A stretch of DNA of 21,413 nt, taken from the IMG/VR virus record IMGVR_UViG_3300013005_000197, positions 1 to 21,413 of that record; one strand, written 5' to 3'. The translations under genes and the position numbers were made by a program. This document shows positions 1 to 9,986 of the stretch, one piece after another. The notes under the pieces were generated by a model. That model searched no databases. It saw only the letters and a program-made list of their open reading frames with translations, and had not been told where the DNA came from. The DNA comes from a virus. How positions within the stretch are numbered: the first letter of the stretch is position 1; each line of letters opens with the position of its first letter.

Positions 1-180
1 ACTCATGTCAGACAGCAATAGGAAGAACTGTTTGTCTGCTGGAGCCATACCAGACATAGGCTGAGTCACAAACACTACCGAGTACATAGACAGAGTAGCC
101 ATCATGCCAAGAATTGCACAGAACGTAATACCGATAGCAAACTTGAGATAAGCGTTAAGTTGTTCTTCATTTAAATTCAT
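1..180 (-). CDS. Small membrane protein, possible holin (partial, cut by left edge)
   Basis: An open frame starts at ATG 180 and runs 60 codons to the window edge without a stop, so the C-terminus is missing. The N-terminus is polar (begins MNLNEEQLNAYLKF). One clear membrane segment follows at about residues 14-40, then a short polar loop and a second hydrophobic stretch beginning near residue 50 (FFLLLSDMS). The start codon overlaps the stop of the upstream lipoprotein gene as ATGA, so the two are translationally coupled. Position next to endolysin and lipoprotein genes, small size and probable two-helix topology suggest a holin or other lysis membrane protein. I recall similar short proteins in aquatic podoviruses, but they are generally uncharacterised. 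The coding call is firm; the role is inferred from context. Confidence 0.7.
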   Translation of the reverse strand, partial: MNLNEEQLNAYLKFAIGITFCAILGMMATLSMYSVVFVTQPMSGMAPADKQFFLLLSDMS

Positions 181-365
181 TGCTTTACCTTCTCAGGTTG
201 GGTTACATCTTCAGGACAGGTTCCAGTTGCAGTGCAGATAGGAGGCTTACATTCTTTAGTCTCCCAATTAGCCGGGGATTGGCAGGGATACCTAAATCTA
301 TCCTCACACGCCACCAAGCACATGGAGAGCATGAGCATAATGTTTCTTACGGTCTTCGAGTCCAA
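177..365 (-). CDS. Cys-rich small lipoprotein in the lysis cassette
   Basis: This is a 62-residue protein. Residues 1-19 form a lipoprotein signal peptide with a basic n-region (K4, R7), a hydrophobic core and a lipobox LVAC, giving a lipidated Cys20. The mature part is about 43 residues and contains four more cysteines (28, 39, 44, 50) and several prolines, with motifs such as RFRYPCQ and KPPIC. It would be anchored in a membrane, probably the outer membrane facing the periplasm, and may be disulphide-bonded. The first 62 nt overlap the 3' end of the endolysin gene in another frame, reminiscent of the compact Rz/Rz1 spanin arrangement. I keep the upstream ATG because starts at residues 10 or 12 would remove the basic n-region. 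It could be an outer-membrane spanin subunit; a superinfection-exclusion lipoprotein is an alternative. The family is conserved in aquatic phages but has no proven role that I know of. Confidence 0.8.
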   Translation of the reverse strand: MDSKTVRNIMLMLSMCLVACEDRFRYPCQSPANWETKECKPPICTATGTCPEDVTQPEKVKQ

Positions 366-945
366 TGGTTCCTCCGTTAATGCGCTTAGTCATAGTCAAA
401 ATGTCACCAGCATCAGCCAGTTTATTCAGGCTAGCTGTTTCCCAGTACCAGCAAGCACTCTGAGCAGCACCTTCAAAGGTCTGCATATACTCTGAGGCTT
501 CTTCAGGAGTAATTCCAAGGGATGAGGCGAACCAGAAGTAATTATCCTTCCCGGTAACCTGAATGAGACCTCGACCTTTGTATCGAGCGCCATCACCACT
601 AGCTTCATTGCCATTGCCCATACGGTTAGCGTAAACACGGTTAGCAATCTTGTCGGGTTGACGAGCGTAAGCATTAGCTGTGGCTTGGTCAGGAAAGTAT
701 TTAGCAAAGGTCTTCATTAGACCAGCAGCACTGTAGTTCAGGTTCTCTGTCAGCCAAACAAAGCCACCAGACTCATGACCACATTGAGCCATAAACGCAG
801 CAATACGCTTAGGAGTATTGATTTCGTACTCCTCAGCCAATGATTTACCAGATAGCTCAGTCTGCTTACCAAACAATGCGTCGTACCACTGTTTAGGATA
901 CTTAGTGTTTGGCACTAACTGAGTAAATTGCTGCATAGTAATCAA
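304..945 (-). CDS. Endolysin, glycoside hydrolase family 19 (chitinase-like) fold
   Basis: This 213-residue protein probably cleaves the glycan strands of host peptidoglycan at the end of infection. It matches the GH19 lysozyme-like fold. The first catalytic region is AAFMAQCGHESGGF with Glu58 as likely acid. The ENLNY segment with Glu67 is a candidate second acidic residue. The Y-KGRGLIQVTG-NY block at about 122-134 lines the substrate cleft. Length is typical of single-domain phage GH19 endolysins, and there is no separate cell-wall-binding domain or signal peptide, so release by a holin is expected. The start is TTG at 945: an AGGGG element lies 6 nt upstream and TTG overlaps the previous stop (TTGA). 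The next ATG at 936 would be about 15 nt from that site. The 3' end overlaps the lipoprotein gene. Confidence 0.92.
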   Translation of the reverse strand: MITMQQFTQLVPNTKYPKQWYDALFGKQTELSGKSLAEEYEINTPKRIAAFMAQCGHESGGFVWLTENLNYSAAGLMKTFAKYFPDQATANAYARQPDKIANRVYANRMGNGNEASGDGARYKGRGLIQVTGKDNYFWFASSLGITPEEASEYMQTFEGAAQSACWYWETASLNKLADAGDILTMTKRINGGTIGLEDRKKHYAHALHVLGGV

Positions 946-1196
946 GGCTCACCCCTTATTCGCTCGTTAATAATCTGCTTGCGTAACTCTCTAATAGCCC
1001 GGATTTCCATCTCTACAGCCACACGAGCATTGTTTAGATCCATGTACATCACCCCAAGCACAGGGAGTACAACGACAAACGTCAAAGCCATTACTAGTAC
1101 ACATAAGACGAGAGCAAACGATACGTCAGACTCTCCCTTAGAAGATGTAGGACGCCTAGGAACCACACTACGACGAAAAGGATTGCGCCAAACCAT
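942..1196 (-). CDS. One-helix membrane protein with charged helical C-terminus (spanin- or holin-like)
   Basis: This is an 84-residue protein. A basic N-terminus (VWRNPFRRSVVPRR) is followed by a single strong membrane segment at about residues 26-51. A charged helix-forming tail of about 33 residues (MDLNNARVAVEMEIRAIREL onward) comes after it. By the positive-inside rule the N-terminus is cytoplasmic and the tail periplasmic, the topology of inner-membrane spanin (Rz) subunits. It overlaps the 3' end of the 230-residue gene by 103 nt in a different frame, and its stop overlaps the endolysin TTG start by 4 nt. The Shine-Dalgarno sequence is weak, so expression may depend on coupling. It lies directly before the endolysin, unlike lambda Rz, which follows it. 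A holin is the main alternative. The coding call rests on the clear membrane topology and the tight junction with the endolysin. Confidence 0.7.
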   Translation of the reverse strand: MVWRNPFRRSVVPRRPTSSKGESDVSFALVLCVLVMALTFVVVLPVLGVMYMDLNNARVAVEMEIRAIRELRKQIINERIRGEP

Positions 1197-1786
1197 GTTG
1201 CGTATTCTTGCCTTATCCTTGCTGCTCTACGTCTTCTAGCAGCGTCAATCTGTAGCTTTGCAGTTTCACGTTTATGAGCCTCATCTTGCTCAATAACGAT
1301 CTGCTTCCACATCTTCTCGTATCTGCTCCACAAGTCACCTAACTCAGCCGGTGCTTTGTAGACCATTGTTTCGCGCAGTTCCGCAAACATCGCATCTAAT
1401 CTTGACCGGATGATGACACGCATTAAAGCCCGTTTGCCAACCGAATCTGCACCCGTATAAACCTGTGTTGCCTCTGCTTCCTGCTGGATAAAGACCTTGC
1501 CGATCTTGTCGTACTCATCCATCAGCACACCAAGATCATTGCCAATCTTAATGAAGACATCATTAGGATCAGCCTTGCCTATCTCCTGAACCCTAGCTAC
1601 TTCTTCGTTGTACTGAATCTTCTGAGCGTTAGTGGGATTCGGTATCTTTTGGAACTGCGTCTTTAGATCGTCTAGTACGTCCTTGACTTCACCAGCAGCG
1701 CCCTTGATGTCCTTGTATAGCTGACATCCCTTCTTTACAGCCGCAACAGCAGCATTAGCAGCAGCTAGGAGAGTTAGCGGATCAAT
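1094..1786 (-). CDS. Membrane-anchored hypothetical protein with apparent ATT start
   Basis: The frame stays open from a stop at 1787-1789 down to 1094. It contains no ATG, and its first GTG (1528) lies deep inside a continuous protein-like sequence. Reading from ATT at 1786 gives 230 residues beginning (M)IDPLTLLAAANAAVAAVKK, a typical phage N-terminus. An AGGA element lies 7 nt upstream of this ATT, overlapping the stop of the preceding gene. The N-terminus has a short Ala-rich hydrophobic stretch and the middle is charged and helical, with an Arg/Lys-rich run near residue 190. A membrane segment near the C-terminus (about 201-217) includes FGAILFVVVWFLGVLHLL. Proteins with similar N-termini occur in marine phages without assigned function. 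A role in lysis is suggested only by location. The start codon is inferred, but the upstream extension looks genuinely coding. Confidence 0.75.
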   Translation of the reverse strand: MDPLTLLAAANAAVAAVKKGCQLYKDIKGAAGEVKDVLDDLKTQFQKIPNPTNAQKIQYNEEVARVQEIGKADPNDVFIKIGNDLGVLMDEYDKIGKVFIQQEAEATQVYTGADSVGKRALMRVIIRSRLDAMFAELRETMVYKAPAELGDLWSRYEKMWKQIVIEQDEAHKRETAKLQIDAARRRRAARIRQEYATWFGAILFVVVWFLGVLHLLRESLTYRLLSSYVY

Positions 1787-1795
1787 TTATTGTTC

Positions 1796-1981
1796 CTACT
1801 TAGGTAAGGAGCCGTTACCAGCCATCCAGAACATTAGACCCAATGCAGCAGCACCGACGATCCAGAATATCTTTTTAACGACAGAACGACCGACTTCTTC
1901 ATAGATCTTTTTAAAAGCTACTTCAGCGGCACGTTCCGCTATAGCTTCAATCTGGTCATCAGAAAGAGGCATCTTTTCCAT
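1796..1981 (-). CDS. Small one-helix membrane protein (holin candidate)
   Basis: This 61-residue protein has an acidic helical N-terminus (MPLSDDQIEAIAERAAEVAF), a basic juxtamembrane region (RSVVKK) and a single membrane segment of about 20 residues (IFWIVGAAALGLMFWMAG). It ends in a short GNGSLPK tail. I place the start at ATG 1981, two bases after the fibre gene stop, with a GGA element about 10 nt upstream. An in-frame GTG at 2002 would add seven residues but has no better ribosome site and would overlap the upstream gene. Its position between the tail fibre and the lysis genes fits a holin or antiholin; similar small proteins in aquatic podoviruses are unassigned. The stop codon TAG forms part of the Shine-Dalgarno element of the next gene. 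Confidence 0.75.
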   Translation of the reverse strand: MEKMPLSDDQIEAIAERAAEVAFKKIYEEVGRSVVKKIFWIVGAAALGLMFWMAGNGSLPK

Positions 1982-1983
1982 GA

Positions 1984-2721
1984 TTAGACAGTCCTTTTCC
2001 ACATACGGACTACGATATATGGCTGCAAGTTAGCGTTAGTGCCAGAGGAGCCTGTTGACGCAACAGTAATATTGGCTGTTCCAGATTCTGTTGTTGCTAC
2101 AGTTCCGCCAGCTGGAGCCGCTGCTGGAGTATTAGTACTTCCGCCAACTGCACCACCGGCGGGTTGTCTTGGACTGTCTATTGAATGTGTATGTCCTGAA
2201 TCCGTAGCAGTGTGAGTATGGCTTACTACAATCGCATCAGCAGAACCGCCTGTTTCTTCAGCCGTATCAAATGCTGCATTACCAGCATCTAGGCCAACCA
2301 TAACACGACCAGCACCAAAGGCTACCCAAGTACCAAAGCCAAGCAACGTAGCAGGGTTAGTGCTGCTAGAAGCATTAATATAGATAGATCCGACCGGATA
2401 AGCCGCTGCTAATGCTGCCTGAACAAACGCTGTAGTAGCTACTTTAGTTGTGCTATCACCAAACGTAGCAGTTGGAGCAGTAGCAGAGCCAGCAATAGCC
2501 ACAGTGCTAGAGAATACAGCAGCACCAGTACAAGTAAACGCACCACCTACCGTAAAGTTATCGCCATCAGTACCTACCTGCTGGTCTTTAAGCTGTGCCA
2601 TTAACTCACGAATAGCGTTATTAATGCCAGACGGAGCGCAACCCTCTGCTATGTTAATACCCGCGATGTCAGTGTTATTTGCAGCAGTAGCGCTATATTC
2701 GCTAATCTTGTTCTTTGCCAT
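1984..2721 (-). CDS. Tail fibre / collar-type protein with His-x-His motif
   Basis: This 245-residue structural protein is likely involved in host recognition at the tail. The N-terminal 50 residues contain the module SGINNAIRELMAQLKD, often found at the virion-attachment end of phage fibres. A Thr/Ala/Val-rich shaft follows. The segment YPVGSIYINASSSTNPATLL, continuing into FGTWVAFGAGRVMVG (about 108-143), matches the conserved receptor-domain entry of collar and baseplate-wedge-type fibres. Next is SHTHTATDSGHTHS (about 167-180), an HxH pattern that binds metal ions along the trimer axis in T4 gp12-like fibres. The Gly/Ala/Thr-rich region ends in NLQPYIVVRMWKR, a common C-terminus of this class. 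It is the last structural gene before the lysis cassette. Host range cannot be judged from sequence. Confidence 0.88.
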   Translation of the reverse strand: MAKNKISEYSATAANNTDIAGINIAEGCAPSGINNAIRELMAQLKDQQVGTDGDNFTVGGAFTCTGAAVFSSTVAIAGSATAPTATFGDSTTKVATTAFVQAALAAAYPVGSIYINASSSTNPATLLGFGTWVAFGAGRVMVGLDAGNAAFDTAEETGGSADAIVVSHTHTATDSGHTHSIDSPRQPAGGAVGGSTNTPAAAPAGGTVATTESGTANITVASTGSSGTNANLQPYIVVRMWKRTV

Positions 2722-4325: not shown

Positions 4326-6013
4326 TATTGACCTCGTTTTCTCAATTCTTCACTAACAGCATCTTCTAGCGTATTGCCACCACCCAACTCATAAAAATCA
4401 GCTAACTCAGCAGTATCTTTGCGCTTACGCAATCTCTTAAGATTTTCATTATGAGTTGATATTTTTCTATTTGCCACTTTCTCAAGCGCACCCATCAAAG
4501 CAACAACTTCTTTTGCGGTAAATTGAGCAAAGTTACCAGCAGATGCACGAGCAATAAGGCCTCGTTCAAAGTCAGTAATTGCACCTTGACCAGCCATTGA
4601 TTTAGCTGCTTCCAACTCAAGACTTGCAAGACCTTGCATTGCTTGAGATGTTCTAGCTAATTTATCTTCAATAGAACCAGATGCAATACCAAGTGATGAG
4701 GCAAGCCTATCAATGTAAATATTGGAGCTTGATAATGGACCAGAATAAACACCTTCTTTAATCAAAGGCTTAATATTCTGAATAGTAGAAATCGTACTTT
4801 GTGCAGCTAACGCATTTTCATACGTTTTTTGAACTCCAGCAGCAACACCTCTACCAAACTCCTCAGCAAACTTCTTTTCACCAACATTAACAGTTGTGAT
4901 GTTTCTGCCAGCAATACGCAGTTCTTTTTCTTGCTTAACTAAGCGCTTCTGAATTTCAGCAATTTGTGCTGGCGTATAGTTTGCAGGATCAACTCCCGGC
5001 GCAACATCTTGCCCAATACGATAAGCTTCATTCTGGAAATTATTTTGAGCGCGTTTAAAATCAAGTTCTTTTGCTCGATAATCGTTAATATCTTTTTGTA
5101 TAGCCTGAACTCTCTGAGCATACTGATCTGGAGTAATTTCACCAGTGGAAGCAATACTCATCAAGTTATCAATAGCTGGTCTAAATTGCTCTGGTGCAGA
5201 TGCTCTAAATGAACTTAAGTCACCACTAATATCAGATACAGAAGCCTTAGTTATTTCTTTATTGATTGCTTCAAGACGTTTTAAGTTTTGGTCAACAATC
5301 TTCCCTGCTCGCTCATTACCAGCAAACTGAGGATTAGAATAAGTATTAATTATTTGTTCAATTCTTTGCTTTTCAGCTAGTCTTGCGTCATATGCACTTG
5401 GTTTTGCACTTGCCACTACTGGTGGTAAAACCCGTTCTTGTCCTGCTTGTCCTGTAGTAGGAACTGGCTGAACTTGTGGCTGAACTTGTGGCTGAACTTG
5501 TGGTGCATTAACTTGTTGTTGAGCTGCTGGCTGATTCAAAGTTTGACCAGCTTGCTGCAATGGCAACAACTCAGAATAAAGTTTCAAAGCATCGCCCGGA
5601 TTAGCTCTAATGTAAGCAACTTTAAGCGGATCGTTAGCAATCTCTGGAGATTTCAGCAAATTCTCAATAGCACCTTGCTGTGCCATATACTGTTGACGCT
5701 CAATCAACGCCTTTTGTTGTGCTAACTGAGTCTGTGCAATCTGTTGCTGTGTAACGTAATTCTTAATACCCTGTTCGTAAGCACCACCAGCAGCACCAAA
5801 GCCACCAGCCAATGCACCTAAGATGTTCTCAGCAGCAGAACGACGTGGGCCAGTACGGCTCATGCCTTGAGCTAGTGCCAGACCAGCACCTAGCAAGCCC
5901 TGAACATTAGCCCGGTTCTGCAAGTTCTGAGTTTCTTCAGCACCAAGCAATCCCTGCAAATAGCTAGGAGCCGCTTGACCAAAGACATTAGGAATGTAAT
6001 CTGAAAGTGCCAT
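4325..6013 (-). CDS. Probable internal virion / DNA-ejection protein with Gln-rich coiled coil
   Basis: This 562-residue protein has a hydrophobic Gly/Ala-rich N-terminal part (about residues 38-80, including GLLGAGLALAQGMSRTG). A Gln-rich coiled coil follows (about 88-115), then a Pro/Gln linker carrying a triple PQVQ repeat (about 171-182), and a long helical domain. The C-terminal third holds SMAGQGAITDFERGLIARAS (about 478-497), a motif I associate with phage internal structural proteins. There is no signal peptide or enzymatic motif. The start at 6013 has AGGG 6 nt upstream and overlaps the closing codons of the preceding gene's region. Together with its neighbours it forms a block of Ala/Gly/Gln-rich proteins as seen for P22 gp7/gp20/gp16 or T7 core proteins. 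Homology to any of these is not shown here; the role is inferred. Confidence 0.78.
   Translation of the reverse strand: MALSDYIPNVFGQAAPSYLQGLLGAEETQNLQNRANVQGLLGAGLALAQGMSRTGPRRSAAENILGALAGGFGAAGGAYEQGIKNYVTQQQIAQTQLAQQKALIERQQYMAQQGAIENLLKSPEIANDPLKVAYIRANPGDALKLYSELLPLQQAGQTLNQPAAQQQVNAPQVQPQVQPQVQPVPTTGQAGQERVLPPVVASAKPSAYDARLAEKQRIEQIINTYSNPQFAGNERAGKIVDQNLKRLEAINKEITKASVSDISGDLSSFRASAPEQFRPAIDNLMSIASTGEITPDQYAQRVQAIQKDINDYRAKELDFKRAQNNFQNEAYRIGQDVAPGVDPANYTPAQIAEIQKRLVKQEKELRIAGRNITTVNVGEKKFAEEFGRGVAAGVQKTYENALAAQSTISTIQNIKPLIKEGVYSGPLSSSNIYIDRLASSLGIASGSIEDKLARTSQAMQGLASLELEAAKSMAGQGAITDFERGLIARASAGNFAQFTAKEVVALMGALEKVANRKISTHNENLKRLRKRKDTAELADFYELGGGNTLEDAVSEELRKRGQ
5466..5503. repeat. 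12-bp in-frame tandem repeat, three copies
   Basis: The 12-base unit GGCTGAACTTGT is repeated three times without mismatch, plus two extra bases. On the minus strand it encodes the PQVQ repeats of the linker in the 562-residue structural protein. Because the unit is a multiple of three, copy-number changes keep the frame and only alter linker length. Confidence 0.9.
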
Positions 6014-6016
6014 ATA

Positions 6017-6649
6017 TCACCCTAATAGGGAAATTGGTTGTGGTCTAAGAACTGTGCTTTGCTGTGGATTTAGCAGACTCATGTAATCACCACCTTGAAT
6101 CTGACCACGACTTACTTGACCAGCAGGAGCCATACGAGCTTCAGGCTGTTGCAATGCTTGCTGTGCAGTCTGAGCAGCCATTTGCGTAAGGTATGGGTTA
6201 TTTTGAGCGTATTTGCTAATCTGACCTGCACCAGAACCAACTTGCTCTAGAAAAGACGGAGCCATTGAAGATGACTGGATATTAGGATTGAGCATTGACT
6301 CCAAAGTGCCAAAGGATCTCTCTACCGCAACATTTGATGAAGGTGTATATACAGCAGGATTAGCAAATATTCCAGCAGGAGCAGATTGACTAGCGCCAAT
6401 TACAGTGGTTGGATTAACACCAGCAGCATTAGCAAACATAGTATTTGCACCAGTAGATGCACCAGCACCAGTTAATGCACCACCACTACCAGCTACCTGA
6501 GTTGCACCAGTACCTAGAATACTCGGCATCAAAGCACTACCACCATAACCAAGAGCGCCACCAAGCAATGCACCTTGCAATGGGTTATCACGATTAGTTA
6601 GCCCACCGATAGCGGAACCAATCAACATTGGAGTAGCAGCAGCACCCAT
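6017..6649 (-). CDS. Gly/Ala-rich structural protein, probable ejection component
   Basis: This is a 210-residue protein. The N-terminal half is a low-complexity Gly/Ala/Leu-rich segment with at least two potential membrane-inserting stretches, including MLIGSAIGGL and ALLGGALGYGGSALMPSILG. A Gln-rich, polar C-terminal half ends QPISLLG. A Gln-rich stretch near residues 150-175 may be helical. The start at 6649 overlaps the upstream stop as TAATG. A strong GGAGG 6 nt before it lies inside the last codons of the upstream gene, so coupling is likely. Size and composition resemble small internal virion proteins such as P22 gp7-type ejection proteins, but I see no specific family signature. Its place in the run of four similar genes supports a virion role. 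Confidence 0.7.
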   Translation of the reverse strand: MGAAATPMLIGSAIGGLTNRDNPLQGALLGGALGYGGSALMPSILGTGATQVAGSGGALTGAGASTGANTMFANAAGVNPTTVIGASQSAPAGIFANPAVYTPSSNVAVERSFGTLESMLNPNIQSSSMAPSFLEQVGSGAGQISKYAQNNPYLTQMAAQTAQQALQQPEARMAPAGQVSRGQIQGGDYMSLLNPQQSTVLRPQPISLLG

Positions 6650-7383
6650 TATTTACCTCCCGACGGAGTAGCTTGTTGAACAGTCTGACTTCCCTGAGGA
6701 ACACTGCTAAACAAGTTAGCAAATTGGCTAAGTTTCTGTTGAGGCAAGTTTTGCTCAAAGTTAAAGCGGTTAATTGCGTCTTGCAGTTCAGCAGAGGAAT
6801 ACTGTTCTTGTGCCTGACCTGTTGACAAGAGTCTTTGAATATCAGCATAGTCAGTAGCCGCCATTGCAGGAGCAGCTTGAGCCGCTTGCATCTGTCTAGC
6901 ACGTTCAGCTTCAGCCGATCCGTAAGCCAATTGACCACCTTGTTCAGCCAAGGCACGAGCAAATATGTCTTGCGCCATAGCTTCTTGTTCAGCTTGAGCA
7001 GCAGAACCATAACGACCCAGTGAGGAAGCCTTAGATTGAAGGTTTTGGACATTCTCAGTAAAGACATTGCCAGCCTGACGATTAACGCCAGCCAAAGCAC
7101 CCTCTAGGAATGGATTAACGCCTCGTCCTTGAATCGTAGCTAATTGCTCTTGCTGTGCTGAACGAACCAGCGGAGAACCCGCCATAGCCCGTTCCTGAGC
7201 CATATTAAGGGCTGATTGAGTAGCCTGAGACGGAGAAACGTAGGTTTGTCCGGGAAAGAAGCTAGGCGTACCAGACTCATAAAGGCGCTTGCCTTCTTCT
7301 AGTCCATAGGTAACATACGGCTTGATGTCTGGATCAATGCTCGTAGTCGTTGTGCTTGTTTGATTCCCGCCTCGGCTACCCAT
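6649..7383 (-). CDS. Conserved podovirus structural protein (internal virion / DNA-transfer type)
   Basis: This 244-residue protein begins MGSRGGNQTSTTTTSIDPDI. It contains GTPSFFPGQTYVSPSQATQ (about 38-56), then a long helical, Ala/Gln-rich region with NPFLEGALAG and LGRYGSAAQAEQEA (about 88-135). The end is NRFNFEQNLPQQKLSQFANL (about 207-226). This order of motifs is familiar from many short-tailed phages, where the gene lies just after tail-hub genes and is annotated as structural or DNA-transfer protein. The GAGGTGTAA end of the preceding gene provides the Shine-Dalgarno sequence for its ATG at 7383. No enzyme motif or true membrane helix is present. A virion location is likely; the exact position (core or ejection complex) is inferred. 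Confidence 0.78.
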   Translation of the reverse strand: MGSRGGNQTSTTTTSIDPDIKPYVTYGLEEGKRLYESGTPSFFPGQTYVSPSQATQSALNMAQERAMAGSPLVRSAQQEQLATIQGRGVNPFLEGALAGVNRQAGNVFTENVQNLQSKASSLGRYGSAAQAEQEAMAQDIFARALAEQGGQLAYGSAEAERARQMQAAQAAPAMAATDYADIQRLLSTGQAQEQYSSAELQDAINRFNFEQNLPQQKLSQFANLFSSVPQGSQTVQQATPSGGK

Positions 7384-7384
7384 A

Positions 7385-7783
7385 TTACACCTCGCAAATC
7401 CATTGTTTAGGACGGAAACCGAGTTGTTTCGCCCTACGTTGCCATCCTTGACGATGACTAGAGAAAGTTAGATATTTGACATTACCTTGACGGCAGATGT
7501 CTTTTATGTATTTTAATCCAGATTCAACAATTTGATAATTATTTTCTAACGTCCAAGCAGCCCATAGGTGCATTGTTTCGCCCATAGGTTGCAGGATAAA
7601 GAAGCCTACAAAATGATTATTTTCTAAAATTATCCACAGCATTGCCTTTTGGTTAAAGCAGTCTGTGTACACATCTTCTGGTATCCAATTCTCCGGGCTT
7701 CGTGTTTTGATTTTGTCCAAACCGGGGCGAACACTAGGCCACCAGTCCCTAAGTTTATCTACAGGTATGTACCTAAACTCCAT
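7385..7783 (-). CDS. GNAT-like acyltransferase-fold protein
   Basis: This 132-residue protein has the size and strand-helix order of a minimal GNAT domain. It has an N-terminal strand and helix (FRYIPVDKLRDWWPSVRPGL), the paired strands AMLWIILENNHFVGFFILQP (about 47-66) and a strand MHLWAAW (about 71-77). A helix with YIKDICRQG follows, and the terminal HRQGWQRRAKQLGFRP (about 109-124) resembles the helix and loop near the C-terminus of GNAT enzymes. The classical acetyl-CoA loop (Q/R-x-x-G-x-G/A) is not clear, so activity is uncertain. It starts at ATG 7783 overlapping the previous stop (TAATG) with only a weak GGTGG element. Lone GNAT-like genes occur inside structural operons of several podoviruses, where they may act in morphogenesis or modify a virion or host protein; no substrate can be inferred. 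Confidence 0.68.
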   Translation of the reverse strand: MEFRYIPVDKLRDWWPSVRPGLDKIKTRSPENWIPEDVYTDCFNQKAMLWIILENNHFVGFFILQPMGETMHLWAAWTLENNYQIVESGLKYIKDICRQGNVKYLTFSSHRQGWQRRAKQLGFRPKQWICEV

Positions 7784-8571
7784 TAGCCCACCACAATGTA
7801 ACCATAGGTTTTATCTGCCGTATTGTTTGACCAATGCGTAAGCGTAGCACTTCCTTGTTGCTGAGATGAAACATATACATTATAAGTTGCAGATGGAGCA
7901 ACATAAGTCATAGTAACAATTGCGCTAGGAACTGCTGGACGAGTAGGAGATGTACTCGTATCAAAATGCTCTATAGAAACACCTGTATCTGTAACCCGCC
8001 ACATAACTTCAACGTAATCATTTGCTTGAAGCTCAACGAAAAAGTTAAGCGCAGCAATTAAGTGACTAGGATCACCGCCACTCTTTCTCGCTGGTAGATG
8101 AAACCGGCTATTAGAATTAGCAATGTTTGTACCGTTTTTACGGAACCATACATCTACGTCTTGACCATCGTTAGTCGTATTCTTAAACTGAATAGAAAAT
8201 TGCAGGTTGTAAATACCGTAGTTTCGGACATTTATTCTTGAGCTATTGGAAACATAAATCCCATTGCTGTAATCAGTAGTATTTAACGTAATTGCATAGG
8301 CTGTGGTGGTATTGGCAGCAGTCTGGTCTGTAGTGTCCTGAAACGCTCCGTAAGGCGTAGAATCAGCTTCGGCAGCATTAGATACAGGAACCAAGAATAT
8401 CAGGCTGTCAAAGCCTATACGCTCGTCGTAGAGGGTAGTTGTCGTGGCATTCCCTGTGGCTAACGTAATCCGACCCGTATTATTGGTCTTTCCGTCCATA
8501 ACCCCACGAACCACCTCAGAAACCTGACGAGGATCTCCTCCAAATGGCGGTAATGTACGAAACTGAGTCAT
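7783..8571 (-). CDS. Beta-sandwich (C1q-like) virion fibre protein
   Basis: This is a 262-residue beta-rich protein. The N-terminus FRTLPPFGGDPRQVSEVVRG is a short helix-containing anchor seen in phage fibre proteins. The strand-rich body includes NVRNYGIYNLQFSIQFKN, then DVDVWFRKNGTNI, an AALNFFVELQANDYVEVMWR segment and later TMTYVAPSATYNVYV. The order 'strand - DVDVWFRKNG - HLPA - AALNFFVEL - NDYVEVMW' matches C1q/TNF-like jelly-roll domains used as trimeric head domains. It is probably a trimeric head or tail fibre that contacts host surface or decorates the particle. The start overlaps the gp10-like stop as ATGA, with AGGG 6 nt upstream. The fold assignment comes from pattern reading, not alignment. 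Confidence 0.75.
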   Translation of the reverse strand: MTQFRTLPPFGGDPRQVSEVVRGVMDGKTNNTGRITLATGNATTTTLYDERIGFDSLIFLVPVSNAAEADSTPYGAFQDTTDQTAANTTTAYAITLNTTDYSNGIYVSNSSRINVRNYGIYNLQFSIQFKNTTNDGQDVDVWFRKNGTNIANSNSRFHLPARKSGGDPSHLIAALNFFVELQANDYVEVMWRVTDTGVSIEHFDTSTSPTRPAVPSAIVTMTYVAPSATYNVYVSSQQQGSATLTHWSNNTADKTYGYIVVG

Positions 8572-9986
8572 CGGTTACCCTGTTTAACAACGTCAAACTC
8601 TAAGCCAACAGCAGTTTTCCAGCTAGATCCAGTAGGAGTCAGTCTTAGTCGATGATATTCACCGTTAGACCGCAAGCTCACACGGTTTTCTGCGTCAGGA
8701 GACACATCTGAGCCAAATTCCACTTGTTCAGCAAGATTATCCCGGCTAGAAACAGCGATAGAACCGCTACCATTGTCCACAATAGGCTTGGCAAGCATGA
8801 CCGTAGACCTACCTACATCAATATCACCCGTTGATATGTTCGCAGTCTTAGGCTGGCCTGAAAAAGTAATGATCTTCTGACCGCTAACACCAGCAAATAG
8901 TATTTGTCCACCAGCAAATACCCGTGAATCCAATGGAATATCAAGCGCATCAATGCTTGAGTTGTAGTTATCTACCTGTTCTAACGTAGCGGAAGGTGTT
9001 AATACATAGGCAATTGACGTTGCTGTGGTATCTGCGTATGACCATTTGTTAAGGTCAATCGAGTACATCAGCATACTATTACCGCCAAACGTATTATTAA
9101 ACTTCCATATTATTAACTTAGTAACAGGATTAACCGTAGCACTCATTCCAGTAAATATCTCACCCGGAATAGCGTTATCAAAGAACCAACGGTTTACCTT
9201 TTCGCTACCTATATTCTTGGTTGACTGACCATCACAGACATAAAATCCATCGTCTGCAAGGAAATACGTTAGGTTGCCGTATTGAGCGATAGATCCGTTA
9301 GAAATACAGCCCAAAGACCGTGAGATAGCGTCAAACTGGAAGAAGAACGGTGAGCCTGTATAGGTCATCCGGTAGATAGCACGTTCCAAGAAGATCAGAC
9401 CGTACTCACCACCAGCTATACCAGTAATGTCACCACCGTCAGGAAGAATCTGTGTATCAGACTGAGATGCAGAACCCGGTGTCCAGTCTGTCTCGTCATT
9501 TATGTCCGACCAGTAGACCTTGCTAGTATCAGTTCCGTCGTTAGCAGCAACCACAAAGTCACGCACAACAGTTACAAATTTAGCAGTAGGAGCAGCAGCA
9601 GCTAGGTCAGCAAAGTTCGTGGACGAATTAAGTGTCCATGCTTGCAACTTGTCCTGACCATTAGCCAGAATCATCTTTGCGCCAAACTGAGTTACATCCC
9701 ATCCCTCAACTGCTGTATAACCCGTAGTCGTAGCAGCATCCAAGCTAGCATCAGAGCTATCAAACTTATAAATCTGGGTTGTACTAGCTGCAAACAATGT
9801 ACTAACGCTGTCAAACTTACCAGCAAAGGTAATGATTAGATCAGCACCAGCAGCGTCAGAGTAATCAGCCTCGCCTTTAACTGGGGCATATCCATTAGCA
9901 ACTGGATAACAGTTCTTTGCGTCTGTTACTGCACCTGTTACGCCGGGTTGATCTGGCAACCACTCACCAAACAGAATCTTTTGCAT
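8568..9986 (-). CDS. Tail-hub / packaged-DNA stabilisation protein, P22 gp10-like
   Basis: This is a 472-residue protein that begins MQKILFGEWLPDQPG. It has repeated beta-strand segments and characteristic pieces KVYWSDINDETDW (about 164-176), GGEYGLIFLERAIYRMTYTG (about 199-218) and YFLADDGFYVCDG (about 247-259). These are typical of the gp10 family of short-tailed phages, which close the portal channel after DNA packaging and carry the tail needle or fibres. I choose ATG 9986 because it overlaps the upstream stop as TAATG and has GAGG 5 nt upstream. An in-frame TTG at 10001 adds five residues without a better site. It lies between a giant repeat protein and a fibre protein, consistent with a tail hub. 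Assignment to gp10 is by motif memory; the strand-rich (propeller-like) nature is visible in the sequence. Confidence 0.85.
   Translation of the reverse strand: MQKILFGEWLPDQPGVTGAVTDAKNCYPVANGYAPVKGEADYSDAAGADLIITFAGKFDSVSTLFAASTTQIYKFDSSDASLDAATTTGYTAVEGWDVTQFGAKMILANGQDKLQAWTLNSSTNFADLAAAAPTAKFVTVVRDFVVAANDGTDTSKVYWSDINDETDWTPGSASQSDTQILPDGGDITGIAGGEYGLIFLERAIYRMTYTGSPFFFQFDAISRSLGCISNGSIAQYGNLTYFLADDGFYVCDGQSTKNIGSEKVNRWFFDNAIPGEIFTGMSATVNPVTKLIIWKFNNTFGGNSMLMYSIDLNKWSYADTTATSIAYVLTPSATLEQVDNYNSSIDALDIPLDSRVFAGGQILFAGVSGQKIITFSGQPKTANISTGDIDVGRSTVMLAKPIVDNGSGSIAVSSRDNLAEQVEFGSDVSPDAENRVSLRSNGEYHRLRLTPTGSSWKTAVGLEFDVVKQGNR

Follow-up and report, generated by a model that had tools for sequence, protein, structure and literature searches.

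A phage lysis cassette headed by a conserved membrane-protein gene pair, with comparative evidence for AUU initiation

Introduction

The Rz/Rz1 pair of phage lambda is the described system closest to the end of the locus reported here. Relatives of our phage resemble lambda in that a proline-rich lipoprotein frame lies inside an Rz-like i-spanin gene (PHROG 312 / PHROG 456), 3' of the endolysin and the holin candidates; they differ in that the pair is set off from the endolysin by genes for a cysteine-rich lipoprotein (CysLP), a two-helix protein (tm2) and a small protein named KKVC after its motif, and in that it lies outside the window, by which we mean the whole stretch of DNA analysed, an IMG/VR record of 21,413 bases. 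The endolysin is matched along its full length by GH19 phage enzymes (PHROG 181), with 44–58% identity to annotated enzymes of Vibrio, Pseudomonas and other phages, and nothing notable distinguishes it from them. The place of tm2 is held in other members of the phage group by proteins like GTA_holin_3TM (PF11351 / PHROG 3427), from which tm2 differs in having two helices, in lacking profile homology and in belonging with PHROG 25359.

A further comparison concerns initiation. Besides infC, pcnB is a gene that starts at AUU. Both infC (AUU) and Streptomyces sigR (GTC) carry non-canonical start codons that are discriminated against by IF3 (PMC5472188). The start of p230, a gene at the head of our cassette, is of the same kind, with an ordinary start unavailable. 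Unlike these genes, p230 belongs to a phage family that counts hundreds of members, in which AUU with a Shine-Dalgarno sequence alternates with GUG without one; IF3 control would apply here by analogy only. In the literature searched we found no phage gene with an AUU start.

Results

A lysis cassette at the cut end of the window

The cassette lies at the low end of the window, where the record is cut, and all of its genes are on the minus strand; terminase, portal, scaffold and head proteins are encoded elsewhere in the window. Before the cassette stands a tail fibre/baseplate protein with a Gp10_C domain (1984..2721; PF21939, E 3.3e-26, and PHROG tail families), then a small one-helix protein (1796..2002) of 68 aa from a GTG at 2002, or 61 aa from an ATG at 1981. 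The latter occupies a variable slot and is present in only 7 loci of the comparison table. Different phages fill the interval from the last tail gene to p230 with unrelated small proteins (for example p111 and p90), several of them with one helix, or leave it empty.

The next gene, p230 (1094..1786), encodes 230 aa of an uncharacterised family, predicted to be cytoplasmic and all-helical with one C-terminal membrane helix. Its start codon is ATT (1784..1786), immediately preceded by an in-frame TAA, with a Shine-Dalgarno-like AGGA 7 nt further 5' (1794..1797). The 3' end of p230 overlaps the 5' end of p84 by 103 nt (1094..1196). Synonymous difference in p230 is 0.30 in the overlapped codons 197–223 compared with 0.43–0.55 elsewhere, and because the drop falls exactly at the overlap, this is real dual coding and no chance open frame. 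The p84 product (942..1196; 84 aa), constant partner of p230, has a predicted N-in membrane helix and a short periplasmic helix. The endolysin gene follows from a TTG start (304..945); the protein matches PHROG 181 over its whole length (E 1.8e-72) and falls just below the cut-off for PF00182 (22.6 bits against 25.5). Overlapping it by 62 nt (304–365) is CysLP (177..365), which also starts at TTG and encodes a 62-aa lipoprotein with lipobox LVAC and four conserved cysteines besides the lipidated one. Coupled to CysLP through ATGA is tm2 (1..180), a holin candidate with two helices, probably N-in/C-in, of which 60 codons precede the window end (PHROG 25359, E 1.7e-5).

This gene order is kept in dozens of relatives. 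The genes, both overlaps, the TTG start of the endolysin and the ATGA coupling had all been recognized in a first-pass annotation, and its reading of the region as a lysis cassette is supported by the endolysin in the window and, in relatives, by Rz/Rz1 and a slot of holin type. That p230 starts at ATT was only implicit there, in that a length of 230 residues requires it.

Spanin genes of close relatives beyond the window end

The first-pass annotation had also considered that p84 and CysLP might be an inner/outer spanin pair flanking the endolysin in an unusual order. The closest relatives do not support this. One locus (L003) is 95.45% identical to the window over 2,066 nt, up to the window's last base. 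Past that point it encodes a complete tm2 of 133 aa (7613–8014), a secreted KKVC protein of 54 aa (8011–8175) and then Rz/Rz1: an Rz of 156 aa (8172–8642) and, nested in another frame, an Rz1 that is a proline-rich lipoprotein of 80 aa (8392–8634). A second locus (L005) also has a complete tm2 of 133 aa, and its spanin pair matches the Rz-like spanins of PHROG 312 (E 6.2e-12), PHROG 456 (E 3e-4) and, above cut-off, PF10721 / DUF2514. With i- and o-spanin profiles matched in L005, the o-spanin frame within the i-spanin gene in both loci, and a lipobox, this phage group has lambda-like embedded spanins. The record ends in tm2, and the window phage's own Rz/Rz1 probably lies just past the cut. 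The order appeared unusual because the window is truncated.

The KKVC protein is 54–58 aa long, secreted, carries a KKVC/HKKLDGTKVP motif and precedes Rz in most loci where GH19 comes first. In the public annotation of MW202462 (L162) the p230 homologue (4998–5690) is started downstream, at 5025, and the nested Rz/Rz1 (6499–6990 / 6665–6901) are missing.

CysLP and tm2 alternate with holin-like proteins

We classified 180 loci that differ from one another in the last 200 nt of p230 and for which at least 2.3 kb of downstream sequence is available. CysLP was found in 99 of the 180, and tm2, GH19 and Rz/Rz1 accompany it in 99 of 99. The order is GH19-CysLP-tm2-KKVC-Rz-Rz1 in 91 loci, and CysLP-tm2-Rz-Rz1-GH19 in 8, MW202462 among them. 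Another 79 loci lack CysLP and tm2 and instead encode a GTA_holin_3TM-like or similar multi-helix protein, together with GH19, GH108 or a phage lysozyme. The two arrangements are mutually exclusive (99 versus 79) with one exception, in which tm2 occurs together with a holin-like protein (L178); one locus has neither (L174). Rz/Rz1 are present in 40 of 80 loci with a holin-like protein.

Only some of the alternative proteins in the slot match a holin profile, namely PF11351 in L074 (E 2.9e-10) and PHROG 3427 in L012 (E 3.9e-6). Several of the alternatives (phrog_6637 and phrog_1544 types) are themselves merely holin-like, and the types in L053, L163 and L179 match only families of unknown function. 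In a further locus (L073) the holin-like frame appears broken or contains undetermined bases (XX) around +1463 to +1809 relative to the p230 start, possibly an assembly artefact. The tm2 protein itself matches no holin profile, only PHROG 25359, whose function is unknown; hydropathy scanning and inspection of its sequence show a strong hydrophobic segment and a weaker one, as fits a small cassette protein of one to three helices. Since CysLP and tm2 are swapped as a unit for GTA_holin-like proteins, tm2 is likely the holin, as exclusivity, position and two-helix topology together indicate. The first-pass annotation had not chosen among up to four membrane proteins; the multi-helix one is now the candidate.

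In 60 of the 180 loci p84 occurs without CysLP, so that the partner of CysLP is probably tm2 and not p84. By eye, p84 can also be seen in several loci that the profile missed (L179 and others). CysLP has the conserved pattern C-(x)-R-Y-x-C-Q-x-P-x-N-W-x(4)-C-x-x-P-x-C-x(4-6)-C and gave no family match in Pfam and PHROG profile searches. Only p230 and p84 keep their place at the cassette head while endolysin and holin slot change; the endolysin downstream of this constant pair may be of GH19, GH108 or phage-lysozyme type.

The start codon of p230

In the window, the first in-frame ATG, GTG or TTG of p230 is a GTG at codon 87. Of 80 relatives, 42 have GTG at the aligned first codon, 35 ATT and 3 ATG. 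Pattern scans returned at least 119 stretches with ATT, 107 with ATG or GTG, and 29 with ATG or a codon other than ATT and GTG; as the ATT number is a lower bound and the GTG count complete, the share of ATT is if anything an undercount. Among the matches listed, 217 distinct 5' ends start with ATT (118), GTG (80), ATC (12), TTG (3), ATG (2) and ATA (2), and no ATT, ATC or ATA member of this set has an ordinary in-frame start upstream. In the same matches a stop codon directly precedes ATT in 65 of 118 members, and a Shine-Dalgarno core of at least four bases is present in 108 of 118 ATT members versus 3 of 80 GTG members. Within the ATT class, codons 2–14 differ by 0.010 at nonsynonymous and 0.55 at synonymous sites, which indicates that they are translated. 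Coding in p230 thus begins at AUU where an ordinary start is absent. A distant clade of 39 relatives has 31 GTG, 7 ATT and 1 ATA; one of its ATT members carries ATG directly before the ATT.

Other genes of the same loci served as controls. ATG starts were counted in 66 of 67 p84, 38 of 43 GH19, 11 of 11 tm2, 34 of 34 KKVC, 17 of 17 GH108 and 48 of 55 Rz genes, Rz1 starts at GTG in 31 of 31, and ATT starts none of these control genes; the counts leave out CysLP and tm68, whose query sequences do not begin at the start codon.

On a tree of 207 p230 sequences the start switches between the AUH (AUU, AUC or AUA) and NUG classes at least 36 times. Presence of the Shine-Dalgarno sequence follows start class: about 21 of 29 independent pairs change in step and 0.7 in the opposite sense (median p 6e-6). 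AUH starts stand behind 36 unrelated clusters of upstream ORFs, so a single upstream module cannot explain them. Upstream modules do recombine at the junction, and changes of start class therefore need not be point mutations; the association of start and Shine-Dalgarno sequence may come in part from recombinational exchange of whole upstream modules. Comparative genomics demonstrates, at the level of sequence, that p230 is translated from AUU, and the pattern is suggestive of selection that keeps initiation weak or regulated; our favoured reading is selection against strong initiation of p230.

We considered a decoy out-of-frame start (ATG overlapping the GTG, TTG overlapping the ATT), but such a frame lacks a conserved stop, and the idea was rejected. 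Gene callers restricted to ATG, GTG and TTG truncate p230 (to 144 aa in the window) or lose it.

The p230 and p84 proteins

When the p230 sequence was searched against Pfam, the PHROGs and PDB, chance matches alone were obtained. An AlphaFold2 model is all-helical (pLDDT 75, pTM 0.52); the relatives of this model that Foldseek returned from BFVD are all uncharacterised viral proteins, and PDB yielded none at E<=0.001. The p230/p84 pair is conserved down to about 20% identity. Judged from these comparisons it is a widespread gene pair, not previously described, with an unusual initiation rule; its tie to lysis is one of position alone. A search of genome contigs for the host gave one partial match, to a Chitinophagia MAG contig, which is too little to name a host.

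Discussion

We consider it highly probable that the window comes from an aquatic podovirus-like phage and breaks off within its late lysis cassette, and that the cassette comprises p230 (read from AUU), p84, GH19, CysLP and tm2 as holin, then KKVC and Rz/Rz1 beyond the window. By this account the locus holds the leading half of a lysis cassette that is fairly ordinary for a phage. Most likely tm2 would open the inner membrane; the GH19 enzyme, by its family assignment, would cut the wall; and Rz/Rz1, as assigned by family in relatives, would fuse the envelope. CysLP would be an accessory of tm2 rather than an o-spanin, and p230 and p84 would form a constant membrane-anchored pair at the cassette head, whatever holin and endolysin come next.

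The alternative raised by the first-pass annotation is that p84 and CysLP work together as a two-component spanin; this might be in addition to Rz/Rz1. Their predicted topologies would suit it: hydropathy, charge and lipobox make p84 an inner-membrane N-in protein with a coiled periplasmic tail and CysLP an outer-membrane lipoprotein. In MW202462 and loci like it, CysLP lies next to p84 and overlaps it. The combined periplasmic length of two-component spanins goes down to 62 residues, a range that includes the ~77 residues of p84 and CysLP, and length was dropped as an argument against p84 as i-spanin; so, given the T4 case, was the argument from a missing cysteine (both PMC6139136). However, the spanin role is already filled in every CysLP locus, the p84 tail is just ~34 residues long, and the pairing fails in that p84 so often lacks CysLP, which co-varies with tm2; we regard such a pair as very unlikely. 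CysLP might, by analogy, be made late as a receptor-blocking lipoprotein that keeps released phages from inactivation by receptors on debris. The lipoprotein Llp of T5 has this role, and CysLP is small, with four conserved cysteines, and encoded among late genes. Its tie is to tm2 and the holin slot, however, and not to a receptor-binding gene, and with no family match found we think this role unlikely.

For p230 and p84 the alternative carries more weight. They follow directly after tail genes, lack a lysis annotation and have a few weak matches to tail proteins, and it is quite possible, if the less probable reading, that they are virion or host-takeover membrane proteins merely placed between tail and lysis genes. 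Yet across very diverged phages (18–30% identity) they remain beside lysis genes, even as holin, endolysin and spanins are exchanged around them. A different objection is that ATT is no start and that p230 is made from the upstream gene by frameshifting or stop readthrough: in some members (for example L012) the stop before ATT is in frame with that gene. In the window and many others, however, the upstream gene either terminates in a different frame or stops 9–15 nt short of ATT, on which grounds such an origin was rejected in general, and AUH starts retain the Shine-Dalgarno sequence at start spacing behind their unrelated upstream clusters. We judge this origin highly improbable.

With p230 taken as initiated at its aligned first codon, initiation would be kept weak or conditional in two ways: by AUU, AUC or AUA with a Shine-Dalgarno sequence, or by GUG near an upstream stop without one. 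The likely purpose is to have p230 made in small or controlled amounts, for example because it regulates when lysis occurs, although this is speculative. The fuller proposal, that p230/p84 are a widespread membrane module setting lysis timing, with dose held down or coupled to the host's translation state through selected, IF3-discriminated AUU (AUC/AUA) codons, we put forward as a long shot.

The analysis removes a false claim of unusual spanin order and singles out a holin candidate that can be tested. It also brings to light a family of phage genes that hardly ever start with AUG and start most often with the very rare AUU. The start pattern of p230 amounts to a natural experiment on selection for weak initiation, repeated many times over.
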